Shown: positions 41,263-59,347 of the stretch, piece by piece
Layout of the letters: every line of letters starts with the position of its first letter
Position numbering within the stretch: position 1 is the stretch's first letter
Assembly (NCBI GenBank): GCA_947441615.1
Contig: CANEUH010000005.1
Coordinates: 62,001-126,000 of the forward strand
Source of the DNA: Bacteriovoracaceae bacterium
GTDB taxonomy: Bacteria; Bdellovibrionota; Bacteriovoracia; Bacteriovoracales; Bacteriovoracaceae
Direction: 5' to 3'
Length of the DNA: 64,000 nt
Notes under the pieces: generated by a model
The model's input: only the letters and a program-made list of their open reading frames with translations
The model's database searches: none
What the model was told of the DNA's origin: nothing
Translations under genes and position numbers: made by a program

Positions 41263-44175
41263 ATGGAAAATATCATCGGTCTTAATCAATCACCAAAACT
41301 ATCAAATGAATCAGGCGAAGATTCATTCAAGTTTTATGCTCGTCCTTTGACTTCTAAGCTATTAGAGACCATGGAGTTATCAAAACATTTTATTCAAGGC
41401 GAAGGCGACTATCTTTTCTATGAAAAAAATCAAAGAAAGCAAAAAGTCCTGGATCTCACGGGTGGATATGGCGCCAATATCCTTGGACATCGTCATCCCA
41501 AAATACTCGCAAAACTTCAAGAATGGAAGGATGAGGGTGCACCATCTCTGACTCAAGGAAGTCAAAGGAAGATGGCCGGGATACTTGCTAAAAGGATATC
41601 AGACACCTTAAAGATAGAGACCGGAGAAGGTCCTTGGATCACCACTTTATCTAACAGCGGGACAGAGGCCGTAGAAGCTGCTTATAAACATTGCCTCATC
41701 TACTTTAAGCAAAAACTCATTGAACTTGGTCAAGAAATTGAAAAAGAAATGAATCTCGCTCTTATGACTATTGAGCGCACGGAAGAGACCTTTAAACCAC
41801 TCCTATTAAAGAGACTTCGGACTGAACTTTCCGAAAAAATTTCCTCACTCTCAATGGGCGAGGAAAGAAAATCATATTTTCTTCACCAGCTTTTAAATGT
41901 CCATGAATTTTACGATCTTATCTCTCTTGTCAGAGAAATTAACCAAAAACAACTAAGCCTTAGACCACACTTTATCGCCCTGGAAAAAGCTTATCATGGG
42001 AAAACCATGGGTGCCTTAAGCCTCACTTTTAATGAGGGATTTAGAAATTCATTTTTTTTAGATAACGATAACAATCAACACACAACATTCCTTTCACAAT
42101 ATATTGAATTAGAGAAGTTAGACCAAATCATCCAGTCTAAAAAAGAAGATCTTATTTTCTTAAGTGACTCAAAAAATGGAGTTACCTGGGAAACACAATC
42201 GTTTACAACCATTGCGGGCTCATTTGTAGAACCCATTCAAGGCGAAGCGGGAATTATTCCAGTCAATGATCAGTTTCTCGCTGTCCTAAAAAAATATTCT
42301 CTTCAAGAAGATTTTTTATTAGTTTTTGATGAAATTCAAGCGGGTATGTACCGCACAGGTACCATGACATCAAGTTACCACTCGCATATTACCCCCGATA
42401 TCTACACTTTCTCAAAGTCCCTCGGTGGTGGAGTTGCAAAGATAGCTGCCACAACCATAAATTCTAGAAAATATGTTGAAGAATTTGGATTTTTACATAC
42501 CTCGACATTTAGTGATGACGATTTATCATCTGCGATTGCACTTGAAGTCTTAAATATCCTCCAAGGTGAAGAGAGTCCTGTTTTCGAAGGGATGAAAGTC
42601 GCAGATTATCTTTGGGTCAGACTACAAACAATCAAATCTCAATTTCCAGAAATTATAAAAGAAATTCGCGGAAAAGGTTTGATGCTTGCCATTGAATTTC
42701 ATGATGAACTATCAAAAATGGGATTTGAGTTTAAGACAATCTGTGATTCAAAAATGCAGGGTTATATGATGGCCTCAGTCTTACTTAATCACGAGAACAT
42801 CAGGATGAGCCCATCTCTCTCGAATAATTTAACTTTAAGGATACAACCTAGTTTATATTTTACCATCATTCAAACAGAAGAACTGATTGCAGGGTTAATA
42901 AATCTCTCAAGGGCGTTAAGGAATAAGGATATCGCTTATTTTTTATCATCCATTTATCCAAATCAACCCGTTAAAAATATCATGACCCCTGAACTTAAGA
43001 CTGAACTTGAGCTTGGTAAAAGACCTCTCAGTGTCTTTTTATGCCATTTAATCGATGAAGCTCACGTGAGAAAAGTTTCAAAATCATTGAGGGACGTAGA
43101 GAGTTCCCCACTCATGAAAAAGCTAGCTCTAAGTAAGGACTTAGCTGAATTTGAAATCTATCATGCTCAAACAATTGTTGATAATAACGGCAAAGAAATG
43201 GATATTGTCATGTTGGCAATACCTGTGACGAGTGAAGAACTCAAAAAAACGTTCACTTCAAGACAAAAATTTAAAGTCGTTCAAAAAGTGCAAAATGCCG
43301 TTGATTTCGCCAAGGAACTTGGAGCTTCGACTGTTGGCCTAGGACAGTTTACTTCAATTGTATCTGGAAACGGATTGTATTTAAATTCACATGGCATGAA
43401 TCTCACAACGGGCAATGCTTTTACGATCTCCTTAACTGTACAGTCAGCACTTAGATCAGCAGAAGATAGGAATATTGATCTCAAAAAATCCACCGTGTCC
43501 CTCATTGGAGCAGCTGGAAACATCATGTCCGTTGCCTCAAGCCTTATGGCGGACTATGTTGGAAAGATTATCCTGATTCATCACTCCCCTATTGAATCAA
43601 GTGCAAAGTTTCAGATAGCAACGAGAAAGATTCTTAATGATATAAAGAACTCAAAATCTGACTCTAGAGTTTGCAGCACCATTCAAAAATTTTGGAAAGA
43701 CCAAGACTTATTAAGTTTTCTATCGATCCCAGAAGTTCTTGAAGTCCTTGAAGCTACTTCTGACGTAAATAAGATTAAACAATCAGATATTATCCTATGT
43801 GGTGCCAGTGCATCGAATGGTTTTCTATCAACAGATCTTTTTAAAGAGGATGCCATTGTTGTTGACGTTGCGGTTCCTCCTTCAATTAAACCAGAAATGT
43901 TAAATAAACTAAAATCGGAACGCCCAGATATCACTTACCACCTTGGTGGAGTGGCGCTAATTCCAAAAAATCAAACAATCGATTTTTTCATATTCCCTCT
44001 TGGAGAAAACGAATGTTTTGCTTGTATGGCAGAAACTTTCACTCTAGGTTTCAGTGGGAAGAATCACTTTTTAAATATAGGTGACCTTACGAAAGAAATC
44101 GTCATGGATGTCCAACATCTTGCAGAGAAGGCGGGCTTTACTCTTGGTAGTTACAAAAATAAGAGCTCACTCTAA
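41263..44175 (+). CDS. Class III aminotransferase fused to an acyl-ACP reductase (AAR-like)
   Basis: 970 residues. Residues about 1-555 form a PLP-dependent class III aminotransferase: SNSGTEAVEAAYKH (130-143), YHGKTMGALS (near 243), VFDEIQAGMYRTG (near 353) and the PLP lysine in FSKSLGGG (near 384). An extra helical insert of about 90 residues lies at 145-235. From about 585 the sequence matches cyanobacterial acyl-ACP reductase: FLCHLIDEAHVRKV, LGQFTSIVSGNG (near 693), NADPH loop SLIGAAGNIMS (near 747), LGGVALIP, and FACMAETFTLGF with the thioester cysteine at about 921. The reductase should turn a fatty acyl thioester into an aldehyde, and the aminotransferase could convert this to an amine. 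ATG 41263 has no Shine-Dalgarno, consistent with a nearly leaderless sigma-54 transcript. It ends 9 bp into the convergent GNAT gene. Confidence 0.9.
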   Translation: MENIIGLNQSPKLSNESGEDSFKFYARPLTSKLLETMELSKHFIQGEGDYLFYEKNQRKQKVLDLTGGYGANILGHRHPKILAKLQEWKDEGAPSLTQGSQRKMAGILAKRISDTLKIETGEGPWITTLSNSGTEAVEAAYKHCLIYFKQKLIELGQEIEKEMNLALMTIERTEETFKPLLLKRLRTELSEKISSLSMGEERKSYFLHQLLNVHEFYDLISLVREINQKQLSLRPHFIALEKAYHGKTMGALSLTFNEGFRNSFFLDNDNNQHTTFLSQYIELEKLDQIIQSKKEDLIFLSDSKNGVTWETQSFTTIAGSFVEPIQGEAGIIPVNDQFLAVLKKYSLQEDFLLVFDEIQAGMYRTGTMTSSYHSHITPDIYTFSKSLGGGVAKIAATTINSRKYVEEFGFLHTSTFSDDDLSSAIALEVLNILQGEESPVFEGMKVADYLWVRLQTIKSQFPEIIKEIRGKGLMLAIEFHDELSKMGFEFKTICDSKMQGYMMASVLLNHENIRMSPSLSNNLTLRIQPSLYFTIIQTEELIAGLINLSRALRNKDIAYFLSSIYPNQPVKNIMTPELKTELELGKRPLSVFLCHLIDEAHVRKVSKSLRDVESSPLMKKLALSKDLAEFEIYHAQTIVDNNGKEMDIVMLAIPVTSEELKKTFTSRQKFKVVQKVQNAVDFAKELGASTVGLGQFTSIVSGNGLYLNSHGMNLTTGNAFTISLTVQSALRSAEDRNIDLKKSTVSLIGAAGNIMSVASSLMADYVGKIILIHHSPIESSAKFQIATRKILNDIKNSKSDSRVCSTIQKFWKDQDLLSFLSIPEVLEVLEATSDVNKIKQSDIILCGASASNGFLSTDLFKEDAIVVDVAVPPSIKPEMLNKLKSERPDITYHLGGVALIPKNQTIDFFIFPLGENECFACMAETFTLGFSGKNHFLNIGDLTKEIVMDVQHLAEKAGFTLGSYKNKSSL

Positions 44176-45300
44176 ATCTATTCCATAAAGAACATATTGA
44201 GAAAATGCTTTTTGTGATCTTTCCTCAAAGGATCTTCTTGAAGGCGAGTTTTTCACTTGAAACGTAACGAGAGTTTTCTTCATAAGAGAAACAATAAACT
44301 GAATCCTTTTTGAAACCTGTATCTGAACACCCTTAACTTCTTCTCCGCCTGGCCCAGGAATTTTACCAACATGTGCAATTAAAAGCGTGGATAAATTGAA
44401 ACGTAATTTAACGAGAAGTAGTGCCTTATCCATCTTGGTTAAGTTTTTATTCCTTACCTTATCTAAGATTAAAAGTGGATCAGCGAAATTAATACTAAAC
44501 CCAACCGGTTTTCCACGGAGCTCAACAATATACGAATAAAGGGGATTGATGATATATTTAAAATCATCATAGATGATTTTAAATTGTGAAAAACTTATTG
44601 GTTCCCATTCCGGCATGGACTGATAGGCCTCATTAAATAATTGATGAATGATTTTAAGCTCTTCATCCCATCGATTCATCTCTACACAGCGGATAGATGT
44701 TCGAAAATTTTTATCTAGCGATTTAGTATGAACACTTTGGGTTTTCTTACCTAATTTCTTTCTTTTGAAAAGATAGTCCCTTATGCCGTCCCATTTTTTT
44801 ATTTCGTAAGTATCCCAACGAGCGATTTCAGAAAAGCCACATCTAATAAATAGATCATGATAATAATCAGGATAAATAGGCTCGCCCCAAAAGGGAGCAC
44901 CTCCTCCAGGCAGTTTTATTCGATATTTCACATAGAGATTGAGATCAATCGGGGTTTTAATTTTCTTAAGCCCCCTTTTTTTTCCTTCAGCACAAACTGA
45001 ATGAGTGAGAAGTTTTGCTGCTTCTTCATTATTAACCCAATCCAGGTAGCCTAAATTTCCAACAGATTCATTTTTCCTCCAGCAAAGGATTGCCTTAGAT
45101 AGAACGATTGAATCCTCGCTTACAATGAAGGCTTGCCAATCGTAATCGTCTTTAAAAGGTGATTTATCTGAAAAGAATTTCTCATAATCAATAAGTGATT
45201 CCGGAAAAGTGGTAATGATATCTTTATGAGTGATCATTTTAAAATCAATCATTCTTTGAAAAAAAGACTCATCCCAAGAGCTACATGTCTCAACTAACAA
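44167..45300 (-). CDS. GNAT-like N-acyltransferase, long form
   Basis: 377 residues, without signal or membrane segments. Two acyltransferase-like halves are suggested. The first (about 40-165) has WQAFIVSEDSIVLSKAILCW and YYHDLFIRCGFSEIARWDTYE. The second (about 200-330) has LFNEAYQSMPEWEPISFSQF, YIVELRGKPVGFSINFADP and HVGKIPGPGGEEVKGVQ. The layout resembles large GNAT-fold proteins that acylate amines. Acyl-CoA loop residues are not clear enough to call activity. It is the last gene of the 50407-44167 operon, overlapping the P450 stop by 7 bp. Confidence 0.7.
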   Translation of the reverse strand: MLVETCSSWDESFFQRMIDFKMITHKDIITTFPESLIDYEKFFSDKSPFKDDYDWQAFIVSEDSIVLSKAILCWRKNESVGNLGYLDWVNNEEAAKLLTHSVCAEGKKRGLKKIKTPIDLNLYVKYRIKLPGGGAPFWGEPIYPDYYHDLFIRCGFSEIARWDTYEIKKWDGIRDYLFKRKKLGKKTQSVHTKSLDKNFRTSIRCVEMNRWDEELKIIHQLFNEAYQSMPEWEPISFSQFKIIYDDFKYIINPLYSYIVELRGKPVGFSINFADPLLILDKVRNKNLTKMDKALLLVKLRFNLSTLLIAHVGKIPGPGGEEVKGVQIQVSKRIQFIVSLMKKTLVTFQVKNSPSRRSFEERSQKAFSQYVLYGIDLE

Positions 45301-46598
45301 GTTCTTCTCCTAAAAATCATACTAATATTATTCGAGGGTCTAAGGCTAATACCAGCTTCATATTGTTGTTGTTCGCTTTTTGTTATTTCCCAATCAAAAT
45401 GATGAACAAGGTGACTTAAAATAAGTCTCGCTTCCATACTAGCAAAGTACGCTCCAATGCAGGCCCTGGGCCCCAAACCAAAGGGGTAATAGGCCCCTTG
45501 AGGTATTTTCTTTTTTTCATCCGGTAAAAATCTCTCCGGATAAAATGAGAGCGGATTCACCCAAAGATCTTTTGAGCGGTGGCTTAAAAATGGAGCGAGA
45601 ACGACATTAGCACCTCTGGGAATAGCAAGCTCCCCGAGCTTGTCTTCTTTTTCTGCCTGTCTCATAAAGACCCACACAGGTGGCCAAAGGCGCATGACTT
45701 CATCAATCACAGCACCAATCAGTGGAAGTGAATTAAGCTCATCAAAGTTTGAATTTCCTTGAAAATTTGAACATTCTGTTCGAATCCTTTCAATGTAACT
45801 GGGATTTTTTCCTAACTCAATCAGCGCCCATGACATGGAGTTTGTAATCGTTTCATGTCCCGCCATCATGAAAGTCATGATTTCATCCCTGATTTCTTGA
45901 TCACTCATTTGAGCTTTTCCCTCTTCTTGAGCATCAATTAAAAGCTGCAAGAGATCCTGTTTTTTAGATCCGGATCTTCTTTCATGAATGAGAGCGTATA
46001 CATGAGTGTCAAATTTTCTTATTATTTCTTTTAGCCTAAGATTGTCTTTTGTAGGAACCCAAAACGGTATCGGAATTGAAGATCGAGTCTTTCTCGTGAT
46101 AATTCTCATCAAATCCAAAATATCATGAAGCCAGTCATCAAGTTCACTCGTTACTGTTTGGGAAAAGAGAGAATTCAATATAATTCTCCAAGTTAACCGA
46201 TTCACTTCATGGAATGAATCAATCTCCTGACCAGTCTTCATTTCATTCATAAAAAGTCTAACTGTAGAATCAATCTTTGGAGCAAGATCAAAAACACTCT
46301 TTATATTCATCACAGGACGGATCATTTTATGTTGTTTTCGCCAAGATTCACCTTCATTCGTTATGAGCCCATTGCCCAAAAATTTTCGGAGCATCTTGGT
46401 CGTTCGCCCTTTAGAATAGGCATGTGAATTATTTTTTAAGACATGAATGACATCATCTGGATGACTTATAATAAATATCTTTTTCCCGAAAATATTTAAT
46501 ATAATTCTATGACCCTGAAGATCATGCATTTTGGTAATAAAACCAATTGGATTGGCCCGATACTCTTTTAATGTTCTGTAAGAATGGATCAGTCTCAT
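45294..46598 (-). CDS. Cytochrome P450
   Basis: 434 residues, soluble (no N-terminal anchor). The I-helix oxygen-binding motif is AGHETITNS (near 246), the ExxR pair is E300-R303 in DEVMRLWPP, then PERF near 350, and the heme loop FGLGPRACIGAYFA has the axial cysteine at about 380. The sequence style (RLWPPVWVFMRQAEKED, YYPFGLGPRACIGAYFA) is like CYP102/CYP4-type fatty-acid hydroxylases. No reductase or ferredoxin gene is adjacent. It overlaps the PEP-synthase-like gene by 4 bp (ATGA). Likely acts on an acyl or alkyl chain made in this locus, by inference. Confidence 0.93.
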   Translation of the reverse strand: MRLIHSYRTLKEYRANPIGFITKMHDLQGHRIILNIFGKKIFIISHPDDVIHVLKNNSHAYSKGRTTKMLRKFLGNGLITNEGESWRKQHKMIRPVMNIKSVFDLAPKIDSTVRLFMNEMKTGQEIDSFHEVNRLTWRIILNSLFSQTVTSELDDWLHDILDLMRIITRKTRSSIPIPFWVPTKDNLRLKEIIRKFDTHVYALIHERRSGSKKQDLLQLLIDAQEEGKAQMSDQEIRDEIMTFMMAGHETITNSMSWALIELGKNPSYIERIRTECSNFQGNSNFDELNSLPLIGAVIDEVMRLWPPVWVFMRQAEKEDKLGELAIPRGANVVLAPFLSHRSKDLWVNPLSFYPERFLPDEKKKIPQGAYYPFGLGPRACIGAYFASMEARLILSHLVHHFDWEITKSEQQQYEAGISLRPSNNISMIFRRRTC

Positions 46599-48988
46599 AA
46601 TATTTCTATTGTCCCTTTTCCAGCATCAATTCGAATTTTTTGACCCGTTTTAATTTTCTGGGTGGCAGATTTCACTCCCACAATAGTAGGAATATTAAGC
46701 TCTCTACCTATAATGGCCGTATGACTTAACAGAGAGCCCTTCTCAGAAATGAGTCCCTGACTTCTAGACATGATATAAACCCACGCTGGGTCAGTATTTT
46801 TTGTCACCAGGATAAAATCCTTAATCTTTATGTCAAAGGCTTCATGAGGGCCTTCTAAAACGAGAGCAAATCCCTCGACGATGCCTTGAGATACACCAAG
46901 CCCAGATAATTCCTTCTCATGAAATGAAAGGTTCATCTTTGGCAGTGGTTCATCTTCAACCCAAGGGATGACTTCAGGAAATGTTTGAACTTGAGTCTGC
47001 CACACTCTACGTGATTTCATGAGGCTCATCACTTCTGACTTTTGTATTTTCTTGTCTGCGTAAAGCTTCCATTCCTGGGGTGAAAGTGAGAAGAAATCTA
47101 AAGTAGAAAACTCCCTCCAAGAAGAATCATGCTCCTTAAGTGTTTCTGAAAGCTTTAATATCAATTCACGTAATAAATGATAAAATTTTCCACGCCACAA
47201 TCTTGTTGATTCTCTTATTGCAATTGCTTCCCTCGTAAAGTGGAGAATTTTATTATTTAAAAACCCCAACTTAACAACAGATTCTTGATGAAACTCTTTC
47301 CGTGGTTGGATCACATTCTCTTTTGCCCATTGAATGAGTTGATGAAGAAGAACTGGATTATTTTTCAAGGGAAGACTTTCTAGCTTTAATTCTTCAAAAG
47401 AGCGATCACCATAGAGCTCTAAAAATTTTTTTAGTTCCTGGATTTCTTTATCATAATCTTTTGACTCTAATTCATTGAAAGCCTCTTTAAAGGGAGAACC
47501 TGACATTTTGAGATCAAAGCTAAAAAGATCTTGAATAAAATTTTCACCAAGGCAGTGAACTAAACGTTCAAAATGCTCAAGTGGTTTAATGGAATCAACT
47601 TCTTTTGACGTTTTTAATAAATCAATCACCACGTCTTCTTTGAGTCCCATCTTTTTAATTGATGAACTCAAAAAGCCAAGTCCCATCATGATAAAGATAT
47701 CATTTATCACTGTTAGTCCAAAACCCAACGGGCGATCAATAAGCTTATTGAGGTAAAAAATAATCTCATCAGGTGTATGAAGTTCCTGACTCTCTTTCTG
47801 AATTTTATCCCTAACCTGATTTAAATCCTGTGAAAACTGATCAAAGACGGCCTTCTTCCCGATCGCCATTTTAAAAAGGTTGTAAAATGATTTTAGAGAC
47901 TCAAGGAGCTTAGGAGCAGTATGGTGATAAGGAATTTCAACTCCCGCCATTTTTCCACCAATCATTCGATGCCAATTCTCAATATTTTTTTCTCCACCCG
48001 GAAGTGCTCGTAAAACAGCATAATAATGCTCGAGATTATAATAAAGGTGATTATCGACCGAACTTATGAGTCTCTCATAGTGATACGAGAGACTCTTAAA
48101 TTTCTCGTCACTTGCTCCCAAAAGAAGTGCTGATTCTTTAAACACATTTTCATAGGCCTTCTTCACAAAAGAAGCCGTAAATGGGCTCACGACTCCCGGA
48201 TAGGATTCAGATAAATTTGTATCAACAAAATAAGTTAAAGGAGAAAAACTCCTTGTGATTGGTCGGATTTGAAAGACATAAATATGATTATTTTTAATGC
48301 CCCATTCAATATCACTTGGAAATCCAGCACTCTTTTCTAAACTTAGACCTAAATGGATCATTTTCTTAAGTTCAAGATCGTTTAAGACTTCTTTCTCGTT
48401 TGTAATTTTTTTTGTGACTAATTCATGGGTTCTAGTGAATAGGTAGTGATCCACATCAGTTAATCCAGAAACGACGCCTTCACCAAGTCCGTATCCAGCA
48501 TCAATAGCAACTAGTGCCGTCGGAACGATGGGTGATCTGGTAAATAAAACCCCACTTTTATCAACATCGACTAACTCTTGAACGACCACGGCCATTTTTA
48601 GTTCGATTTTCAAATTTTTTCGAGAAAGATATTCCATGACTCTTGGTGCATTCACCGAATGATAAATTTTTAATAAGGACTCTTTCCAATTATCTTTGGT
48701 TACATTTAAGATTGTTTCAAAAAGTCCCGCAAAACTTGAATCGACCTGGTCCTCAAAAATCATCGAACTTCTCAAAGCAATTTTTTCAAACTTCAAAAAA
48801 AAGTCTTCAAATCGAGGAAGGATTTCATTCGGTATTTCCCCATTGTGTTGAAAATAATCAAAACACTGTGTCGTTAAAATAAAAAATGGAGGAACAGGAG
48901 CATTCCAAGAAATAAGTTTTTGAAGGTGGAGCCCTTTTCCTCCGACAAGATCAACTTCAGCGCTTTCATGAGATTCAGAAATCATCAT
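46595..48988 (-). CDS. PEP synthase/rifampicin-phosphotransferase-like enzyme (first copy)
   Basis: 797 residues with an N-terminal ATP-grasp (PPDK_N) domain: VDLVGGKGLHLQKLISW, IALRSSMIFEDQVDSSFAG and VVVQELVDVDKSGVLFTRSP, then ADIEWGIKNNHIYVFQIRP-like QIRPITR near 235. About 350 residues of helical substrate-region sequence follow. The C-terminal PEP-utilising mobile domain has the phospho-histidine in GSLLSHTAIIGRELNIPTIVG (His near 756). There is no C-terminal PEP/pyruvate barrel, so the layout is that of rifampicin phosphotransferase. Such enzymes transfer the beta-phosphate of ATP to a hydroxyl. The acceptor here is unknown but probably belongs to the pathway. Overlaps the UbiA-like gene by 4 bp. 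Confidence 0.88.
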   Translation of the reverse strand: MMISESHESAEVDLVGGKGLHLQKLISWNAPVPPFFILTTQCFDYFQHNGEIPNEILPRFEDFFLKFEKIALRSSMIFEDQVDSSFAGLFETILNVTKDNWKESLLKIYHSVNAPRVMEYLSRKNLKIELKMAVVVQELVDVDKSGVLFTRSPIVPTALVAIDAGYGLGEGVVSGLTDVDHYLFTRTHELVTKKITNEKEVLNDLELKKMIHLGLSLEKSAGFPSDIEWGIKNNHIYVFQIRPITRSFSPLTYFVDTNLSESYPGVVSPFTASFVKKAYENVFKESALLLGASDEKFKSLSYHYERLISSVDNHLYYNLEHYYAVLRALPGGEKNIENWHRMIGGKMAGVEIPYHHTAPKLLESLKSFYNLFKMAIGKKAVFDQFSQDLNQVRDKIQKESQELHTPDEIIFYLNKLIDRPLGFGLTVINDIFIMMGLGFLSSSIKKMGLKEDVVIDLLKTSKEVDSIKPLEHFERLVHCLGENFIQDLFSFDLKMSGSPFKEAFNELESKDYDKEIQELKKFLELYGDRSFEELKLESLPLKNNPVLLHQLIQWAKENVIQPRKEFHQESVVKLGFLNNKILHFTREAIAIRESTRLWRGKFYHLLRELILKLSETLKEHDSSWREFSTLDFFSLSPQEWKLYADKKIQKSEVMSLMKSRRVWQTQVQTFPEVIPWVEDEPLPKMNLSFHEKELSGLGVSQGIVEGFALVLEGPHEAFDIKIKDFILVTKNTDPAWVYIMSRSQGLISEKGSLLSHTAIIGRELNIPTIVGVKSATQKIKTGQKIRIDAGKGTIEIL

Positions 48989-49860
48989 AAAAGTGCCGCA
49001 GTTAATAATGTCATCACAACCACAAGGATCTGAGCTTCGGAGGAATTTTTAAGTGGTCTAGGCATTTTTAATGTTACTAAAAATTTCAAACTTGGAAAGA
49101 TGAGGATAAGCTGTGTTATGGCGAAAAGGCACTGAATCCAAAAAGAGGTTTCGAGTTTATTCATAATGAGGAACACAGTGCTTGTAAAAATTAATTGAAT
49201 CACGATTGCCATACTGATGGCGAACCTTGGGCCCCAAATTTTTGAATAAGTTGTATAGGCCGTTTCTTGCTCAGGTGATCGAATTTTTCTCGTGATTTCC
49301 CAATTTGTAAACATAAAACAAATGGGAAGAATATAGAACACCTTTGATAAATCAACTCTTGGATCGACCTCAGAACAGGCAATTAAAAGATAAGCAAAAT
49401 TAAATAAGACGATGGGGTGATGTGAAAGAAATGCTATAGGTAAACTTTTTCTCATTAAATTCTCAATGAAGAACCATTTCAGCATCAAGAACGTAAATCC
49501 CAAAGTTATGAATGACCACAGAACAAGCTTTAAAGAAGTTAGACTCAAAAAAAGGACGATGAAAACACAAACACCTGCCAGGAAGTGAAGATCTTTTTTA
49601 AAGACTCTTCCTGATGGCAGAGGTCGGTTGGGAAAGTTAGTCAAGTCGTCTTGATAGTCCTTAAACTCGTCCATGATTCTTATAAGAAGAGAAATAGAAG
49701 TTAGAACAAGACCAGGTAAAACAAGAGGAACAATTGCAGGATGCTTAATATCGAATAGACGTAAATAAATTAATTGAACAGCAATTGCCGTAAGGATAGA
49801 ACCTATAAACGATGAAAGAGGAAACATTTCTTTCAAATAAATTAAAATTCTTTTTAACAT
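48985..49860 (-). CDS. UbiA-family prenyltransferase
   Basis: 291 residues from ATG 49860 (AGG six bases upstream). The longer frame from 49911 would overlap the preceding gene by 44 bp and lacks a ribosome site. About eight membrane helices are present. The first Asp-rich motif is RIMDEFKDYQDDLTNFPNRP (near 61-80), and the second motif region reads NWEITRKIRSPEQETAYTTY (near 187-206), where classical UbiA proteins have D-x-x-x-D. The changed second motif places it in a less-studied subgroup. Expected to attach an isoprenyl chain to an acceptor, as in archaeal ether-lipid or quinone synthesis. Overlaps neighbours in the operon. Confidence 0.85.
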   Translation of the reverse strand: MLKRILIYLKEMFPLSSFIGSILTAIAVQLIYLRLFDIKHPAIVPLVLPGLVLTSISLLIRIMDEFKDYQDDLTNFPNRPLPSGRVFKKDLHFLAGVCVFIVLFLSLTSLKLVLWSFITLGFTFLMLKWFFIENLMRKSLPIAFLSHHPIVLFNFAYLLIACSEVDPRVDLSKVFYILPICFMFTNWEITRKIRSPEQETAYTTYSKIWGPRFAISMAIVIQLIFTSTVFLIMNKLETSFWIQCLFAITQLILIFPSLKFLVTLKMPRPLKNSSEAQILVVVMTLLTAALL

Positions 49861-49867
49861 TGAAAAC

Positions 49868-50407
49868 CTAAAATGGATTTTTTCTAATACGTAATAAGTA
49901 TAAACTGACATTAATCAAGAGATGAATAATTGTTCCTGAAATAATGGTGAGGATCATCGTTTCAAAAGGAATAGGGATAAATAGGCGATAGGCCACCATG
50001 CATCCAATGGCAGAGTCGGCTTGATCTATAAAGACAAAAAACCATTTCAAGCGATCTGAGGTTTGACCCTCTTTAATACCTAATCTTCTTTTTATGAATG
50101 AATTCGGTAATTCAGCTAAACAATAACCAAGTCCCAAAGCACATGAAAGTAAAACCGTCGATTCATTTGAGATTAGTGGTGCATTTAAATCAAATAACAA
50201 TTCCCACTTTTGGGCCAGTAAAACACCTGGAAACGTGGCGAGGGGCATTACAATGAAACCTCTCCAAGTTTTGTTCACCCCAAACAATCTTTGATGTATG
50301 GGTCTCTTAAAGTAAGATAAGATATCCGCCTTAACAGCGATCATGTGAAGAATTCCCCCGATTATCAAGGGAAGAGAAAGAAGTAGAATGTGAAACATTT
50401 GAATCAT
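49868..50407 (-). CDS. CDP-archaeol synthase-like (CarS/DUF46) CTP transferase
   Basis: 179 residues with about five membrane helices. CarS-type features are FGVNKTWRGFIVMP (near 43-56), ELPNSFIKRRLGIKEGQ (near 98-114) and FVFIDQADSAIGCMVAYR (near 127-144), the last two carrying the metal-binding aspartates of the cytidylyltransferase fold. In archaea CarS makes CDP-archaeol from unsaturated archaetidic acid. Here it is first in an operon with a UbiA prenyltransferase. The ATG at 50407 has no Shine-Dalgarno, but a TATAAT six bases before it suggests a leaderless mRNA. Function as a lipid-phosphate activator is inferred from family. Confidence 0.82.
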   Translation of the reverse strand: MIQMFHILLLSLPLIIGGILHMIAVKADILSYFKRPIHQRLFGVNKTWRGFIVMPLATFPGVLLAQKWELLFDLNAPLISNESTVLLSCALGLGYCLAELPNSFIKRRLGIKEGQTSDRLKWFFVFIDQADSAIGCMVAYRLFIPIPFETMILTIISGTIIHLLINVSLYLLRIRKNPF

Positions 50408-50413
50408 AAGTTT

Positions 50414-50419
50414 ATTATA
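50414..50419 (-). promoter_or_regulatory. -10 box of a predicted leaderless promoter for the CarS-like operon
   Basis: TATAAT on the minus strand, then AAACTT, then the ATG at 50407. This puts the expected transcription start on the A of the start codon. The -35 region is poor. The box overlaps the first base of the divergent ABC gene start. Confidence 0.45.
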
Positions 50420-51657
50420 TGCTGAACGATGAAAATCGCTACCTTTTCAAATTTGCCTGGAAGAGCATTCGTCGACATGCAGGAAGAAGTTTCTTTATCG
50501 GTTTCTCTGTTTCTTTAGCAGTCATCATTGCCGTTTGGGTTGTTGCATTTTTTGACGGATTTAATGCACAAATCGAAAAAGCGGTCGTGAACACAAATAT
50601 CGGTTTTTTTCAAATCCAAGATCCCCTTTACGCAAGGACAACTGATTCAAGCACCCCTCTAGATTATTCAACAGAGTTAAAAAATCTTATTGAAATGCCT
50701 CCAACCCTATCAGCTTCTCCAGAGCTTGTTCTGGATGGAAACATATCAACACCTGAAGGAGCTGCGGGCCTTGTGGTTATTGGGATTGATCCAGAGCTAC
50801 ACAAACGATTTCTTCCTCTAAGTAATAATATGAGTGAAGGCGATTTTCTTTCAAACCGAGATGAATTTAGTATTCTTATTGGTAAAGAACTGGCGGAACT
50901 TTTTAAATTTCATGTCGGCGATCAACTTGTCCTCAATTATCAAGATCAAAAAGGAAATCTTCGCTCTGAGATTCTCACCATAAAAGGAATTTTTAATTTT
51001 AATGGCAAAAGTTTTGAAAAGAGATTTGTTTATCTAAATCAGAAGACTTGGCAAAAACTGTTTCTCGATTCATATTCTGACAAAATATTATTTAACAGAG
51101 TCTCTGTCATGACTGATGGACTTAAAGATGCTCAAAAATTGGCCAACAGAATTGATAAAACGAACTTAAGTCTTAAAAGCTGGAAGGATTTAAATCCTGA
51201 AATGGCAGTGGTTCTAGAATTTCATGATGGAATGATTAAATTTTTCTTTATCATTATTTCGCTAACAATCACGATGACGATATTAACTCCAGTCAGGATG
51301 CTTTGGCAGGAGAGATTTAAAGAGCTTAAAATGATGAGTATCATAGGAGTCTCTGTAAAAAAATTCTGGAAAATCGGATTTTTTGAAGCTGTACTTATGA
51401 TTGTGATATCAGGCTTTTTTTCGACTATCTTCCTTTCAACACTCATAAGCTATCAGTCAAAAGTGGGCCTGGATTTTAGATTCCTAAACGATGGTGTTGC
51501 TATTGAGAGAGCAGGAATCAAACTTCCTGGAATTATCTTTCCTTTGCTTACGATCAATCAATTGCTCGTGACTTTTATTTTTGTCGTTTTCGTTCTTGGT
51601 ATTAGCTATGTGTGGTCCATTCATAGAACCCTTTTAAGGTTAAAGGAAGAGACGTGA
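50419..51657 (+). CDS. LolC/E-like (FtsX-type) ABC permease, first
   Basis: 412 residues. One N-terminal helix (FFIGFSVSLAVIIAVWVVAFF, near 28-48) precedes a large periplasmic MacB/LolC-type domain (50-265). Three C-terminal helices with the FtsX core end the protein (FFFIIISLTITMTILTPVRML near 275, then LMIVISGFFSTIFLSTLIS and LLVTFIFVVFVLGISYVW). The N-terminus YLFKFAWKSIRRHAGRSFF is typical of these permeases. Such pairs extract lipoproteins or lipids from the inner membrane. It starts 11 bp from the CarS-like start on the other strand and overlaps the next permease by 4 bp. Confidence 0.88.
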   Translation: MLNDENRYLFKFAWKSIRRHAGRSFFIGFSVSLAVIIAVWVVAFFDGFNAQIEKAVVNTNIGFFQIQDPLYARTTDSSTPLDYSTELKNLIEMPPTLSASPELVLDGNISTPEGAAGLVVIGIDPELHKRFLPLSNNMSEGDFLSNRDEFSILIGKELAELFKFHVGDQLVLNYQDQKGNLRSEILTIKGIFNFNGKSFEKRFVYLNQKTWQKLFLDSYSDKILFNRVSVMTDGLKDAQKLANRIDKTNLSLKSWKDLNPEMAVVLEFHDGMIKFFFIIISLTITMTILTPVRMLWQERFKELKMMSIIGVSVKKFWKIGFFEAVLMIVISGFFSTIFLSTLISYQSKVGLDFRFLNDGVAIERAGIKLPGIIFPLLTINQLLVTFIFVVFVLGISYVWSIHRTLLRLKEET

Positions 51658-52862
51658 ACGGATTTAAATTTCTTTTAAAGTTTAGTTACAGAAATCTCTT
51701 AAGATCTCCAAAAAGAACGATCATTTTGATCTTGAGCTTAAGTCTTGGGACAGGATTTATTATCTGGGACCTCAACTTTGCTAACTCTGGCTCTAAAGAA
51801 GTCATGAAGGAGTTTCTTGCCCAGTATGCTGGCGAGTATCACATTACTCATAAAGAGTATTATAAATTAGATAATAAAAAAGAATTCAACAATTTCAAAA
51901 TTATTACAGATGATGAAATTCAGGACAAAAATCTCATCACCTTTTCAACAAGAAGAGTAACGGCGCCTATTTTTGTGTCTGGTGAAAAGAAGACTCTTGG
52001 TGTACTTCTCACTGGTCTAGAGACAGAAAAGGAAACAAAACTTACAACACTTGCTCGGGCAGTTACGGTAGGCAACTTTCTCAATCCATTAAATGAAAAA
52101 GAAATTGTCTTAGGTAAAAGGCTCGCCAACAGAATAGAAGTTAACGTTGGAGATGAGGTCGCAGTCATTGGTCAGGCACTTGATGGCTCTGTCGCAAATG
52201 AACTCATGAGGGTTGTGGGTCTCATTGATTTTGGTGGGGGTGACCTCGAGGAGTCCCTTGCCTTTACCCAAATTAAGTCCGCACAAGAACTTCTAGTCAT
52301 GACTCCCGATCAATACCACCAGAGAGTGGACTTTAATATGAAGGACGAAACAGTTCCAAAGATTGAAGGACTTGCGGTCACTATTTGGACAGACATTCTT
52401 CCTGAAATCGGAGTTTCTGTTAAATTTGTCGATAACTTTACTTGGCTCGTTTCCATTATCATCGTGATGGTGATTAGTCTTGGTCTGTCTAATTCACTGA
52501 TGATTACTTTTCTAGAAAGAGAACAAGAATTTCAATGCTTAAATATTATTGGGGCGAAGACAACTTGGGTTACGGTCTCACTCATGATTGAAGTTTTTCT
52601 TCTTGGAACTATCGCTATTATGCTAGGGACTCTTTTAGGGCATATTTCAACGACATATTTTCACCATTATCCATTTAATATACAATTTTTCACTGGTGGA
52701 AAACCAATCATCATGGGTGGAATGATCATTCAACCATTAGTAAGAATTTATCCGGTCCTCGAATATTATTGGAAAGTGCCTGTAATGATTTATCTCTTCT
52801 TATTAACCACAATGATTTATCCACTCATACGAGTCATTCGTCGGAGCAAAAATGCAATTTGA
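51654..52862 (+). CDS. LolC/E-like (FtsX-type) ABC permease, second
   Basis: 402 residues from GTG 51654. Same layout as the first permease: an N-terminal helix after FLLKFSYRNLLRSPKRTIILI, a periplasmic domain (about 45-265) and three C-terminal helices (WLVSIIIVMVISLGLSNSLMI, VFLLGTIAIMLGTLLGH and a last one near 378). Between the two C-terminal helices is LEREQEFQCLNIIGAKTTWV, the coupling helix region. The two permeases would form a heterodimer. It overlaps the ATPase gene by 11 bp. Confidence 0.88.
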   Translation: MNGFKFLLKFSYRNLLRSPKRTIILILSLSLGTGFIIWDLNFANSGSKEVMKEFLAQYAGEYHITHKEYYKLDNKKEFNNFKIITDDEIQDKNLITFSTRRVTAPIFVSGEKKTLGVLLTGLETEKETKLTTLARAVTVGNFLNPLNEKEIVLGKRLANRIEVNVGDEVAVIGQALDGSVANELMRVVGLIDFGGGDLEESLAFTQIKSAQELLVMTPDQYHQRVDFNMKDETVPKIEGLAVTIWTDILPEIGVSVKFVDNFTWLVSIIIVMVISLGLSNSLMITFLEREQEFQCLNIIGAKTTWVTVSLMIEVFLLGTIAIMLGTLLGHISTTYFHHYPFNIQFFTGGKPIIMGGMIIQPLVRIYPVLEYYWKVPVMIYLFLLTTMIYPLIRVIRRSKNAI

Positions 52863-53541
52863 ACTTATCAATGTAGACAAAATTTACCAAGCTTCTGAAG
52901 AAAATAAAATTTTCGGTGCAAAAAATATTAACCTCAAAATCAGTGAAGGTGATTTTATGGCCCTCGTTGGCCCTTCTGGTTCAGGAAAAACGACGATTCT
53001 CAATCTTATCGCTGGTCTTATTTTACCTTCACAAGGTTCTCTTAAGCATGGGGGAAGTGATATCACCTCATTTTCACTTGAAGAAAGAACCAAACATCGC
53101 TTGGATTATATGGGATTTATTTTTCAAGATTATCAGTTGCTTCCTATTCTCACGGCGTTTGAAAATATTGAATTCCCACTTCAGCTTAAAGGTTTCACTA
53201 AAAAAGAGATTGATGAAAGAGTCCATTGGGCGCTAAAGCAAGTCGGTCTAGAAAATATGGGACATCGTTTCCCTAAGCAGCTCTCTGGTGGACAACAGCA
53301 GCGGGTATCCATTGCGCGTGCCATTGCAGGTCGGCCACAGTTAATTTTGGCAGACGAACCAACGGCCAACTTAGATTCAAAGACAGCTCAAGAGATTATT
53401 GAGTTATTTAAAAAGCTAAACCAAGAATTTAAATTAACATTTATTTTCTCCACGCATGATCAACGCCTGATTGATCAAGTAAAAACAGTCATGTATGTAA
53501 AGGATGGACAAATTTCAGAAACAAGGACTCACCATGCTTAA
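52852..53541 (+). CDS. LolD/MacB-type ABC ATPase
   Basis: 229 residues. Walker A is GPSGSGKTT (near 40-48), Q-loop [10 protein letters not shown], signature [14 protein letters not shown], Walker [14 protein letters not shown] and the switch histidine in FSTHDQRL. This matches the LolD/FtsE/MacB class that powers periplasm-facing lipid or lipoprotein extraction without substrate translocation. It overlaps the second permease and the LolA-like gene, so the operon is translationally coupled. Confidence 0.93.
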
Positions 53542-54265
53542 AAACTGGATTCGAAAAGATATTGTACTTTGTGTAGCGATTGGGGTGAATGCGAAGAGTG
53601 CCGACCAATGGTTGAAATATGCGGAATCACAGATGCGCGGAGATCGCTCACACTCTGAGATGACGATGACGATTCAAACACCGAATTGGAATCGTACACT
53701 CGAAATTGAATCTGATATTGAAGGGAAGAAAGAAGCGCTTTCAACAATCCTTTCTCCAGCAAAAGAAAAAGGTATTAGAACATTAAGAATTGAAAACAAC
53801 ATGTGGAACTATTTTCCTAAATTAAAAAGAAAAGTTGCCGTCTCTTCTTCTATGCTTCTTGCTAGTTGGATGGGTTCAGATTTCACAAATGATGATGTCC
53901 TTAAAGCCTCGTCCATGGCAGAGGACTATTCTCATAAATTCGCTAAAGATGAGAAGAAATTTAAAGTGATCGAAAATCTAGCCAAATCAAACTCTAAAGT
54001 CATGTGGCCGCGAATCGTTACCTACGCCTCAAAGGAAGACTGTCTACCTCGCATGTACAAATATTTCGATAAAGAAGGAAAGCTAAAGAGGACTCTTCAT
54101 TTTAGTGCCATCAAAAAATTCAATGGCCATAAGGTCCCTACTCACTGGGAAATGATTCCAGAAAATGATAAAACGAAAAAAACAATTATTGATTATAAAT
54201 CAATTGATTTTAATATTAAATTTAAACCAAATCACTTTTCTCAAATGAATCTTACGGGGAATTAA
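53534..54265 (+). CDS. LolA-like outer-membrane-sorting protein
   Basis: 243 residues from ATG 53534, six bases after AAGGA and inside the end of the ATPase gene. An N-terminal signal (KDIVLCVAIGVNAKSA) precedes a beta-rich domain with family features NMWNYFPKLKRKVAVSSSMLLASWMGSDFTNDD (split here; positions about 91-123) and a final strand set. This resembles the LolA-like (PF17131-type) proteins that sit beside RND or ABC lipid exporters. Expected to ferry a hydrophobic cargo through the periplasm to the outer membrane. Confidence 0.78.
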   Translation: MLKNWIRKDIVLCVAIGVNAKSADQWLKYAESQMRGDRSHSEMTMTIQTPNWNRTLEIESDIEGKKEALSTILSPAKEKGIRTLRIENNMWNYFPKLKRKVAVSSSMLLASWMGSDFTNDDVLKASSMAEDYSHKFAKDEKKFKVIENLAKSNSKVMWPRIVTYASKEDCLPRMYKYFDKEGKLKRTLHFSAIKKFNGHKVPTHWEMIPENDKTKKTIIDYKSIDFNIKFKPNHFSQMNLTGN

Positions 54266-55473
54266 TGAAGTTTTTCCTTTTAATCTTTTTGGTTTTCGTG
54301 ACTTATTCTGCTCTCGCTATGGAATCAGAATTTTCGGGAAATATTGAGGGGCAGATCAGAAACTCGACGAATAACTCTGAGGCGAAAGACGCTCCTTTAT
54401 TTCAAGACTGGAATAGGGAGAACTTTTATCTCCTGTATGGAAATCTTCATGGAAAAGTTGAATTTGGCGAGTCACGTATTGAGGCAAATTGGTTTGCCCG
54501 GTATAGCGAATCAAATCTTTATGAACCAGCTCCAATCGGTCCATTTAATCGTCCCCCATATATTGCGACTGGGATTTTTACTTTCCCCAACAGGCTCGTA
54601 GCAAGAGATATTTTTCAGATGCAACATATAGATCAAAGTGGGAACCATCAAACCGAATCCATTTTAAACAAATTCTATTATGAGTGGGATGGGAGCGACA
54701 AACGCTTCATGATCGGTCGTCTTTATGTGAATTATGGTCTGGGTGAAATCTTTAACCCTATTAATCCCTTCAATCAACCTACAGCGCTAACTTCTACTTC
54801 GCAAGTCGCTCAAGGTAACGATGGCGCTTCCTTTACATTTTTCATGAAAGACAATCACTTGATTCAATTTTTATTTTTAGGAGATAAAAGGATTGAGAAT
54901 TATGATGGATCCATAAATAAAACGTTCTGGATTCATGGAGAATATCAATTTTCAGATAAGCTCCAAATTGACTATGTTTTGGGAGAGGATCAGAGTCGGA
55001 ATAAGATAGGTGGTCAGGCGAGTTATCAATTTGATGAAGCTCTTATGTTTTTTCAATTTTTATATCAAACTGAACTTATTACTCCAGAACCCTCGAACAA
55101 CCTCTGGGATCTATTAGTTGGCCTTGATCAACAGTTAACAACGAAGTGGCATATTCGTTTTGAAGGTGGGTATCAAAAACAAGATCAATATGCCAGTCTT
55201 ACTACTTTCACGAGATTTTTACCGACTGAATACTTTGCGGCCCTGGCGAATGTTTATGAACCACATCCACTCGTAAAAGTTAGTGGAACAATTATTAACG
55301 ATATCAAATCTGGATTTAGTTATTTCATTGCGAAGGGAACTTTTAGCGTGACCAAAAGCACTGAAATCGAAGCCTTTGGTTTTTCTCCCGTTTCGGCAGG
55401 GGATGAAACAGACAACCTTGCCCAAAAACTTGTAACAACTGATCTAGGAATTGCCCTAAGAACTTTTTTCTAA
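54265..55473 (+). CDS. Outer-membrane beta-barrel protein of the export operon
   Basis: 402 residues with signal peptide FFLLIFLVFVTYSALA and terminal phenylalanine (IALRTFF). The barrel strands are clear (KRFMIGRLYVNYGLGEIFNP, LQIDYVLGEDQSRNKI, KWHIRFEGGYQKQD). Its 5' end overlaps the LolA-like stop (TAATG), so it is cotranslated with the exporter. It could be the outer-membrane receiver of the cargo. It overlaps the convergent PEP-synthase-like gene by 18 bp. Confidence 0.8.
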   Translation: MKFFLLIFLVFVTYSALAMESEFSGNIEGQIRNSTNNSEAKDAPLFQDWNRENFYLLYGNLHGKVEFGESRIEANWFARYSESNLYEPAPIGPFNRPPYIATGIFTFPNRLVARDIFQMQHIDQSGNHQTESILNKFYYEWDGSDKRFMIGRLYVNYGLGEIFNPINPFNQPTALTSTSQVAQGNDGASFTFFMKDNHLIQFLFLGDKRIENYDGSINKTFWIHGEYQFSDKLQIDYVLGEDQSRNKIGGQASYQFDEALMFFQFLYQTELITPEPSNNLWDLLVGLDQQLTTKWHIRFEGGYQKQDQYASLTTFTRFLPTEYFAALANVYEPHPLVKVSGTIINDIKSGFSYFIAKGTFSVTKSTEIEAFGFSPVSAGDETDNLAQKLVTTDLGIALRTFF

Positions 55474-57961: not shown

Positions 57962-59347
57962 ATGACAAAAAGTGCAATAGAGGTTAGAGACGAGCTAAAC
58001 GCCGTCTCAAGTAGTTTCTGCTTAGCAAAATGGCTTCAAGTTACGATTCATTTGCAGAATGGACAAACTCACTCTTGTCACCATCCCGGTACACACAAAG
58101 TTCCCTTAGAAGAATTAAAAGACGATCCGTCGGCGCTTCATAATACAAAAACTAAAAAATCTTTCCGTAAAATGATGCTTGAAGGAGAAAGACCAAAAGA
58201 ATGTGAGTATTGCTGGAGAATTGAGGATGCTCATAAAGATAATCTTTCTGACCGAACATTCAAATCAGCAGATCATTGGGCCTACCCAAAGCTTCAGGAA
58301 GTTTCAAAATTATCTTGGGATCAATCGGTTAACCCACAATACCTAGAAGTGAGTTTTGGTAATGAATGTAATTTCAAATGTGGCTACTGCGCTCCCCATA
58401 TTTCTTCGGGGTTAATGAGTGAATACCTAAAACATGGTCATTATGATTCAATGCCCGCCTTTAATTTAGAAACATTACGAAATGATGGGATGTTTCCCCA
58501 TAGTAAGGACGAATACAATCCCTATGTGGATGCTTTTTGGAAATGGTGGCCTGGCCTATCTAAGGACCTAAAAGTCTTTCGGATTACGGGGGGAGAGCCT
58601 CTTCTTAATCCAAATACTTTTAAATTTTTAGAATATCTAAAATCTCATCCAATGCCAGAATTAAGTCTCGCGATTAATAGTAATCTTGGAATTTCTAAGA
58701 ACACTTTTAATAAATTTGTTGAAGAGATCAAATTTATAACTGAAAATAAATTAATAAAAGACTTTCAACTCTATACGAGTGTCGACACCTACGGAAAGAA
58801 TGCAGAATTCGTCCGGTTTGGACTGAATTACAATGAATACATGCAGAACGTAAGAACCTTTCTTAAAGAAGTTAAAGAAGTTCAACTAGTTTTTATGTGC
58901 ACCTATAATGCATTCTCTGTCATTAATTTTAGAAAATTCCTCGAGGAAGTGACCTCGTTAAAGGATGAATTTAGAAATCAATTTAATCACACCAGAGTTC
59001 TTCTCGATACGCCCTACTTGAAAGATCCATCTTTTCTTTCCTGCTATGTTCTGACTGAAGAATTTTGGCCTTATATTAAAAGTGACCTCGCCTACATAAA
59101 AGAAAAAGCAAAACCAGATGAAAAAACAGGAATCTATATTTATTATGACCACGAAATTAGTAAGTTCGAAAGAATTCTCAATTGGCTAGAAAGCCTAGAA
59201 GAAAATGAACACCGAAAAAATACGAGAAGGGCTTTGTACCAATTCTTACAAGAGTATCAAATAAGAAAAGAGATCAAATTTTCTGATTATTGCCCTGAGT
59301 ATTCTGAATTTTTTAAACTATGTGAGAAAATCTCCCTCGAAAAGTAA
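57962..59347 (+). CDS. Radical SAM protein (twitch-type architecture)
   Basis: 461 residues. The radical SAM cluster motif is CNFKCGYC (CxxxCxxC, near 137-144), followed by APHISSGLMSEY and the SAM-binding FRITGGEPLLNP (near 204-215). Extra N-terminal cysteines (HSCHHPGTHKVPL near 38 and ECEYCWRIED near 80) are typical of radical SAM proteins with an auxiliary cluster or twitch-like N-region. The reaction is unknown; relatives modify peptides or cofactors. It converges on the nucleotidyltransferase-fold gene with a 30-bp overlap. Link to the lipid locus is by position only. Confidence 0.88.
   Translation: MTKSAIEVRDELNAVSSSFCLAKWLQVTIHLQNGQTHSCHHPGTHKVPLEELKDDPSALHNTKTKKSFRKMMLEGERPKECEYCWRIEDAHKDNLSDRTFKSADHWAYPKLQEVSKLSWDQSVNPQYLEVSFGNECNFKCGYCAPHISSGLMSEYLKHGHYDSMPAFNLETLRNDGMFPHSKDEYNPYVDAFWKWWPGLSKDLKVFRITGGEPLLNPNTFKFLEYLKSHPMPELSLAINSNLGISKNTFNKFVEEIKFITENKLIKDFQLYTSVDTYGKNAEFVRFGLNYNEYMQNVRTFLKEVKEVQLVFMCTYNAFSVINFRKFLEEVTSLKDEFRNQFNHTRVLLDTPYLKDPSFLSCYVLTEEFWPYIKSDLAYIKEKAKPDEKTGIYIYYDHEISKFERILNWLESLEENEHRKNTRRALYQFLQEYQIRKEIKFSDYCPEYSEFFKLCEKISLEK

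Follow-up and report, generated by a model that had tools for sequence, protein, structure and literature searches.

We propose that one open reading frame in the 64,000-nucleotide stretch of Bacteriovoracaceae DNA analysed here (hereafter the window, to whose first letter all positions refer) encodes a TamH-type alkylamine synthase, whose amine would be joined to a partner by PigC2, a PigC-like protein of the same cluster, so as to yield an amphipathic amine-containing lipid destined for the outer membrane; to this reading as a whole we assign a probability of about 0.68. The type of enzyme is already known; what is new is its genomic setting.

The fusion and its two catalytic halves

The reading frame runs uninterrupted from an ATG at 41263, preceded one codon upstream by an in-frame TTG, to the stop codon ending at 44175. 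Its features are as follows:

41263..44175, + strand: TamH-type fusion of a class III aminotransferase with an acyl-ACP reductase, 970 aa, by domain matches and with the domain order of PtTamH (PMC9594044)
41434..42819, + strand: aminotransferase domain (Aminotran_3), residues 58-519; Pfam E 4.8e-57
42415..42417, + strand: codon of K385, the lysine predicted to form the PLP Schiff base (FSKSLGGG); of 32 aligned homologues, 31 have K here and one has N
43015..44157, + strand: AAR-type thioester reductase domain, spanning roughly residues 585-965; TIGR04058, PigE and AAR matches
43507..43527, + strand: dinucleotide-binding motif GAAGNIM, residues 749-755; GxxGxxG with Met as the third Gly
44023..44025, + strand: codon of C921, predicted acyl-thioester cysteine, aligned with the cysteine of AAR and of PigE (4ppm)

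All the motifs quoted in the original prediction were found, in both halves: FDEIQAGMYRTG at residues 355-366, FTSIVSGNG at 696-704, GAAGNIMS at 749-756, and FACMAETFTLGF at 919-930. The homologues are collinear with the fusion, at identities of 82 to 63% and down to 26% (L101), and retain the two halves in unchanged order, while the identities of the aminotransferase halves correlate with those of the reductase halves at r = 0.96 (496 pairs, 32 sequences); for these two reasons the frame is neither a chance ORF nor a frameshift chimera. The in-frame union of an aminotransferase with an AAR, as originally predicted, is accordingly borne out by the ORF, the domain matches, and the homologues. 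A structure prediction from a five-sequence input (mean pLDDT 37.6, pTM 0.28) was left out of the evidence.

The aminotransferase domain, like the whole fusion, has CrmG as its best solved relative (8.7e-58). The C-terminal half by itself matched the TIGR04058 acyl-ACP reductase at 3.4e-10 and PigE at 8.3e-23, and a 13-sequence profile of that half reached the solved structures of the cyanobacterial AAR (6jzq, 4.8e-31) and of PigE (4ppm, 2.1e-41), which matches place it in the AAR type, as the original prediction had it; the TIGR04058 score of 39.8 bits against a cut-off of 449.7 marks it as homologous and not as an equivalog. Position 921 is Cys in 31 of 32 homologues, the remaining row being a gap; the L038 sequence is truncated by a contig end. 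In the Rossmann motif the first two Gly are invariant (32/32), and the third position is M in 14 sequences, C in 6, G in 5, V in 3, I in 3 and L in 1; the GxxGxxM form of the fusion is also that of its closest relatives, and PigE has Cys there.

These data bear on the possibility that the AAR half serves the synthesis of ether lipids or hydrocarbons by providing an aldehyde or an alcohol, the transaminase half being vestigial or acting on another substrate. Such a role is suggested by two genomes, G088 and G070, in which an AAR-like protein lacking an aminotransferase match occupies the place of the fusion (a scan performed on the 674-aa protein of G088); but D356, H245 and T415, like K385, are conserved in 31 or 32 of 32 fusion homologues (T134 in 26), and divergence has run in parallel in the two halves, so that we consider a vestigial transaminase highly improbable.

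Relatives and precedent

PtTamH, from the tambjamine YP1 pathway of Pseudoalteromonas tunicata, combines an N-terminal class III transaminase with a C-terminal AAR-type thioester reductase, and the purified protein, together with PtTamA, L-Glu and NADH, converts C12 acid to C12 amine in vitro (PMC9594044). Compared by published description, the fusion has the same two domains in the same order, with the PLP lysine in the N-terminal class III aminotransferase and the catalytic Cys in the C-terminal AAR-homologous domain; it is of similar length (970 versus 941 aa), and a PigC-like protein is likewise encoded in its cluster. The differences are that the third Gly of its Rossmann motif is Met, that its cluster is without recognised bipyrrole genes or a TamA-like ANL-ACP protein and instead has UbiA, CarS-like, GNAT-like, P450 and Lol-type genes, and that the organism belongs to another phylum. 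PigE, from the MAP branch of the prodigiosin pathway of Serratia, has the same two catalytic domains in reversed order, AAR N-terminal and transaminase C-terminal (PMC8341465). The statement in the original prediction that no enzyme of such an architecture had been described is therefore contradicted by PtTamH and, with the domains reversed, by PigE. Among the papers listed by full-text searches of open PMC, such a fusion appears, judging by titles and opening abstract lines, to be treated solely in those on tambjamine and prodigiosin. The cyanobacterial AAR (Synechococcus, 6JZQ/6JZY), for its part, is homologous to the reductase half, with the catalytic Cys aligned, but is a stand-alone enzyme that hands its aldehyde to ADO for alkane formation.

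PigE is the top-scoring named family for the fusion (NF053554, the best NCBIfam model, 9.3e-79 and 265.7 bits, below the equivalog cut-off of 850) and provides a PDB match to both halves; moreover, the reactions reported for that enzyme are reduction of a 3-acetyloctanoyl thioester and transamination of the resulting aldehyde (PMC8341465). If the fusion likewise acted on a branched keto-acyl thioester, the amine would cyclise to a pyrroline or pyrrole, and therefore no linear alkylamine would be released. The domain order, however, is that of TamH and not of PigE, and the neighbours scanned include no recognisable PigD-like ThDP enzyme or PigB-like oxidase, which findings render a PigE-like use unlikely.

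The likely chemistry, supported by homology and by the PtTamH precedent, is thus that of the original prediction: from acyl-ACP through the aldehyde to a primary amine. From PtTamH and PigE we infer that the C-terminal domain would take a fatty acyl group from acyl-ACP onto C921 and reduce it with NAD(P)H to the aldehyde, which intermediate the N-terminal PLP enzyme, through K385, would convert to a long-chain primary amine at the expense of an amino acid donor, probably glutamate. Since the scores lie far under the PigE, TIGR04058 and PigC equivalog cut-offs, the substrates may differ from those of the named enzymes. The Met at the third Gly of the Rossmann motif also speaks against this reading, as does the cluster itself, in which we saw no TamA-like protein that could act as a dedicated acyl donor.

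The gene cluster and its distribution

Downstream of the fusion the window contains:

44167..45300, - strand: 377-aa protein, probably a tandem GNAT acyltransferase, from a weak homologue match and a low-confidence model
45294..46598, - strand: cytochrome P450 (PF00067, 1.3e-77)
46595..48988, - strand: PigC1, a PPDK_N plus PEP-utilizers phosphotransfer protein; best model PEP synthase (360 bits), PigC 194 bits; histidine motif LLSHTAII
48985..49911, - strand: UbiA-type prenyltransferase (PF01040 1.6e-7, 31.3 bits, cut-off 34.2; NF010118 3.8e-35, under its cut-off)
49868..50407, - strand: CarS-like protein, CDP-archaeol synthase family (PF01864 7.1e-15, over cut-off; NF003114 2.4e-18, under its cut-off)
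50419..51657, + strand: LolC/E-like permease 1, by family matches
51654..52862, + strand: LolC/E-like permease 2, by family matches
52852..53541, + strand: LolD/FtsE-like ABC ATPase, by family matches
53504..54265, + strand: LolA-like periplasmic protein (PF17131, 7.7e-44)
54265..55473, + strand: 402-aa protein, outer-membrane barrel-like by eye (signal-peptide-like start, C-terminal Phe); no family match in a Pfam/NCBIfam scan
55456..57765, - strand: PigC2, a PigC-like phosphotransfer protein (PigC model 3.8e-78; motif LLSHAAVI) and, from co-occurrence and co-loss, the module partner of the fusion

The GNAT-like protein had no family match in the Pfam/NCBIfam scan, nor did profile searching against sequences of solved structures give a meaningful one; its L061 homologue matched PF00583 weakly (E 0.041), and a model of mean pLDDT 46.7 found tandem GNATs as its top Foldseek matches, none at E <= 0.001. 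PigC1 and PigC2 resemble the TamQ/PigC ligases and rifamycin phosphotransferase in having PPDK_N and PEP-utilizers (phosphohistidine) domains with no PEP_C match; they differ in lying far under the cut-offs and in that an MBC or rifamycin substrate is not evident.

The fusion, PigC-like proteins, two permeases and an ABC ATPase together recall the published tam genes tamH, tamQ, tamL, tamM and tamN (PMC6667630), and might suggest that the fusion makes the amine tail in a genuine pathway to a tambjamine or prodiginine, with a bipyrrole aldehyde core. General family scans of the cluster, however, recognised no MBC-type gene, and a PF00550 search of the organism's own genome (92% complete) returned four carrier domains, none in a PigG/PigH-like setting: by genes named by eye, one has FabH/FabD/FabG/FabF-like genes next to it, one belongs to an Ole-type cluster, and two are part of a single 2333-aa NRPS-like protein. 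A bipyrrole pathway is thus very improbable, and the condensation partner is probably another compound.

The same fusion, sought in other genomes, is present in 36 of the 368 of the phylum Bdellovibrionota, and its locus is chromosomal and syntenic across Bacteriovoracaceae and relatives. A scan of genome contigs for fusion relatives yielded 33 loci, 4 of them full-length and 29 matching the aminotransferase part alone; one viral-contig scan found no relative. PigC2 is present in 34 genomes and accompanies the fusion in 29 (Fisher p 2e-31, a value that ignores shared ancestry). The first PigC2 count scored two candidates per genome, and absences were rechecked in 14 genomes with all candidates at 1e-10. 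Five of the seven fusion-only genomes have a weaker PigC2-like gene: G188, G189, G190 and G192 at 1e-64, and G101 in two pieces (best 3e-47) on another contig than the fusion. The other two are G024, with a broken fusion and a best PigC2 match of 1.9e-16, and G108, with a K385N fusion and a best match of 6.8e-29. In G123 the fusion is a 99-aa remnant (best PigC2 match 1.2e-23) and in G088 and G070 it is replaced (9e-17 and 1.5e-16), further locus genes remaining in all three; in G088 the place behind the barrel-like gene, where PigC2 would be expected, is taken by other genes. Two PigC2-positive genomes, G063 and G237 (both assemblies 84% complete; PigC2 contig of G237, 3.6 kb), have no fusion even at 1e-10, G063 having an aminotransferase only.

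The neighbourhoods were tabulated at 35 loci, from 33 of the 36 fusion genomes (without G120, G189 and G357) plus G081 and G194, with flanks of 0 to about 15 kb. A PigC-like gene flanks the fusion in 28; the other seven are G047 and G081, whose contigs stop at the fusion; G024 and G108, with degenerate fusions; G025 and G019, whose PigC2 and fusion are on separate contigs; and G101, with about 5 kb on each side. In a 1512-aa protein of G019, an ANL domain is suggested for the N-terminal 600 aa by eye and by weak matches (best E 0.62).

In the window the GNAT-like gene lies next to the fusion, and 15 of the 35 loci have it; G088, which lacks the fusion, has retained the UbiA, CarS, PigC1 and GNAT genes. 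The amine might then undergo nothing more than N-acylation by that neighbour, giving a simple N-alkyl amide, and UbiA, CarS and PigC1 would serve another lipid. We hold this to be improbable: where the fusion is lost (G088, G123) the GNAT-like gene persists and PigC2 disappears, and, since PigC2 goes with the fusion whereas the GNAT-like gene stays, PigC2 is the better partner.

A putative amine-containing lipid

The domain architecture, the conserved residues, the homology, the joint occurrence of the module genes and the synteny are observed; that a condensation follows, and that its product is a lipid, we infer from the gene context. In tambjamine biosynthesis the amine made by TamH is coupled to the bipyrrole aldehyde by TamQ; by analogy, PigC2 would, at the expense of ATP, join the amine to a carbonyl or similar partner. 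A condensing-ligase role is our guess from context, and PigC2 may be a kinase, because the models of PigC (263.3 bits, cut-off 1300), PEP synthase (273.7 bits) and rifamycin phosphotransferase (262.3 bits) match it about equally well. Taken with the exporter, the UbiA, CarS-like, PigC1, GNAT-like and P450 genes suggest that the product is an amphipathic lipid that contains an amine and is destined for the outer membrane. The neighbourhood, which the original prediction had not used, thus favours the unusual aminolipid or alkylamine suggested there, the product itself being read from the gene context. By the cut-offs applied, fifteen genomes have UbiA and CarS together but no fusion (G081, G089 and G123, with a contig end or remnant, are among them), so that these lipid-type genes are not bound to the amine.

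Sphingolipids and phosphonolipids are known from Bdellovibrio stolpii; that idea was rejected for the present organism, in whose genome (92% complete) we found no SPT-type alpha-oxoamine synthase (TIGR01822, E <= 1e-10) and no PEP-mutase match.

More tentatively, and as a reading that we would not yet favour, this chromosomal pathway of the Bdellovibrionota might make a new class of membrane lipid whose fatty chain is attached via nitrogen. The TamH-type enzyme would make the fatty amine and PigC2 condense it; UbiA, CarS and PigC1 would build or activate the remainder; interchangeable head-group genes, such as those for PS decarboxylase (7/35 loci) and DUF3419 of the BtaA family (2/35), would complete the lipid; and an exporter of the Lol type, or of the MMPL type found at some other fusion loci, would deliver the lipid to the outer membrane. 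Two relatives have, in place of the amine module, an AAR/reductase/lipid-kinase set, which would give an oxygen-linked version.

Among the papers listed by full-text searches of open PMC we saw no account of a cluster with such a gene make-up, and in those consulted this type of enzyme is reported from pyrrole pigment pathways only; here it stands among lipid-type and export genes. The cluster offers enzymes to assay and natural loss mutants for comparison; its product, if an amine-linked lipid, would represent a new class of membrane lipid.

The fusion enzyme and its described relatives

Four features of the window are referred to throughout:
41263-44175 (+), fusion of a class III aminotransferase with an AAR-type acyl-ACP reductase
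46595-48988 (-), PigC1, PigC-like phosphotransfer protein
55456-57765 (-), PigC2, PigC-like phosphotransfer protein
57962-59347, adjoining PigC2, Twitch-domain radical SAM protein (NF033640, 4.9e-92, above cut-off)

The fusion gene encodes 970 aa without interruption, in which a domain search places an Aminotran_3 match at residues 58-519 (4.8e-57), the best solved relative of the protein being CrmG (8.7e-58). The C-terminal half matches TIGR04058 at 3.4e-10 and PigE at 8.3e-23; and a profile built from 13 diverse homologues of that half recovered, among solved proteins, PigE (4ppm, 2.1e-41), a cyanobacterial AAR (6jzq, 4.8e-31) and, weakly, glutamyl-tRNA reductase (5.1e-5). The uninterrupted frame and the matches to both halves confirm the fusion as originally predicted.

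That prediction had also named no described enzyme of this architecture, a novelty that is refuted by PtTamH, whose published description gives a class III transaminase followed by an AAR-type thioester reductase—the same domains in the same order—with K340 as the PLP lysine and C887 as a putative cysteine (PMC9594044). The same paper states that PtTamH accepts C7-C14 aldehydes, uses L-Glu, forms no amine from C12-CoA, and converts C12 acid to C12 amine together with PtTamA and NADH. PigE carries the two domains in the reverse order, AAR first and transaminase last, and a PigE-containing lysate, not purified PigE, converted the thioester (PMC8341465). The window enzyme therefore belongs to a described kind: it is another member of the TamH type, the enzyme type itself not being new.

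Among 32 aligned homologues K385 is present in 31, with N in the remaining one, and C921—which aligns with the cysteine of PigE and of AAR—is likewise present in 31, the remaining row being a gap. G749 and G752 are invariant (32/32). At the third Rossmann glycine position 14/32 have Met, the others having C, G, V, I or L; since PigE has Cys there, the Met is by itself no argument for a dead domain. Both domains, K385, C921 and the PtTamH precedent make the chemistry originally proposed, from acyl thioester through aldehyde to primary amine, likely.

Distribution and gene neighbourhood

A fusion profile (E <= 1e-60) found the fusion in 36 of the 368 Bdellovibrionota genomes searched, the source genome (G000) holding one copy. 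All 32 aligned homologues have the transaminase before the reductase, and pairwise identity in one half correlates with that in the other at 0.96 (496 pairs); the fusion is therefore ancient and has been passed on as one unit. In the K385N row (G108, L082) the transaminase half has diverged further from its counterpart in the window protein than has the reductase half (0.57 vs 0.69). Decaying copies, around which much of the cluster is absent, are a fragment in G024 (L062 8325-9323) and the K385N gene of G108 (L110 65-2896). In G019 (L063 7278-11816) a 1512-aa protein carries, ahead of the transaminase-reductase pair, some 600 aa resembling an adenylating enzyme by eye and by weak matches, which part might possibly be a fused acyl activator.

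Downstream of the window's fusion, and convergent with it, lie a probable tandem GNAT, a P450, PigC1, UbiA and a CarS-like gene. These are followed on the opposite strand by genes for two LolC/E-like permeases, a LolD-like ATPase, a LolA-like protein and a barrel-like protein, with PigC2 next. As far as flanks reach, this order is kept in loci L004-L006 and in G004, G091, G111, G115, G116 and G128, the P450 being absent from G091 and G116. (By matching coordinates, L003, L004, L005 and L006 are the loci of G118, G114, G109 and G062.) PigC2 lies about 10 to 13 kb from the fusion on the same contig in G062, G109, G114, G115, G128, G111, G116, G091 and G004. In G004 a relative of the radical SAM protein likewise adjoins PigC2; in G088 one lies at the PigC2 slot.

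Other loci vary. The distant G082 fusion (35% identity) is followed by UbiA, PigC1 and a GNAT-like gene and, some 6-7 kb further, by CarS, PigC2, phosphatidylserine (PS) decarboxylase and an MMPL transporter; G107 has the fusion, UbiA, CarS, PigC2, PS decarboxylase, MMPL and a fatty acid desaturase. In G190 and G188 the fusion and PigC2 are accompanied by genes for PS decarboxylase, a methyltransferase and a protein of DUF3419, the BtaA betaine-lipid family (families scanned on G190 proteins). A further type (G029, G076, G095, G101, G347) lacks UbiA in the flank and has varying sets of thymidylate-kinase-like, HAD and AIRS-like genes.

Genes in the flanking sequence available at the 35 loci examined
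PigC-like: 28/35
UbiA: 17/35
CarS: 16/35
GNAT-like: 15/35
P450: 11/35
PS decarboxylase: 7/35
MMPL: 5/35
DUF3419: 2/35

PigC2 and the fusion as a module

PigC2 occurs in 34/368 genomes (E <= 1e-70), 29 of which also hold the fusion (Fisher p 2e-31, a statistic that ignores shared ancestry). Seven genomes have the fusion only: G188, G189, G190 and G192, of one genus, hold a PigC2-like gene at 1e-64, which in each of three loci inspected adjoins the fusion; in G101 such a gene is split in two on a separate contig (best 3.3e-47); G024, with its broken fusion, and G108, with K385N, give best PigC2 matches of 1.9e-16 and 6.8e-29. In two of the five PigC2-only genomes, G194 and G081, part of a fusion lies at a contig end. 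Among the other three, the G089 contig stops where its relative G107 has the fusion, G237 carries PigC2 on a contig of 3.6 kb, and G063 has no such explanation.

G123, G088 and G070 (assemblies 77 to 91% complete) have lost or replaced the fusion and retained other locus genes, and their PigC-like matches are weak (best 1.2e-23, partly PigC1 itself). The gene at the PigC2 slot of G088, after the barrel-like gene as in G004, is not PigC-like, and the G123 contig stops short of that place. G088 (L112 12253-14277) and G070 (L122 3574-5598) encode a 674-aa AAR-like protein with an unassigned N-terminal part, adjoining DAGK-like and Male-sterility-type reductase genes in what is the fusion locus of G004. 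Several genomes of the family also have ORFs, about 680-690 aa long, that match the reductase part of the fusion.

In the tambjamine pathway TamQ acts on the amine (PMC6667630), and the co-occurrence and co-loss of PigC2 and fusion are the pattern to be expected if PigC2, by analogy, did likewise. The PigC model, however, gives PigC2 no higher a score than the PEP-synthase and rifamycin-phosphotransferase models do.

The probable product

PEP mutase and the SPT-type model tested found no match in the source genome, and no bipyrrole genes were noticed in its 92% complete assembly when the cluster and carrier-domain settings were looked over. Four carrier domains are encoded in this genome, distributed over a fatty-acid-synthase-like operon, an Ole-type cluster and an NRPS-like protein of two modules (genes named by eye). 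The Ole-type hydrocarbon cluster (L128, G000:C11:64000-71000) has, by eye, its own carrier protein and ketosynthase; the NRPS-like protein, of 2333 aa, lies outside the window (L130 6842-13843, G000:C5), and the 184-aa gene right after it resembles, by eye, an Sfp-type phosphopantetheinyl transferase.

None of the papers turned up by the literature search describes this cluster variant; as far as the searches show, the setting of the fusion is new. Because genes for UbiA, CarS, PS decarboxylase, DUF3419, a desaturase and a lipid-type exporter lie near the fusion, we infer that the product of the cluster would be a lipid.
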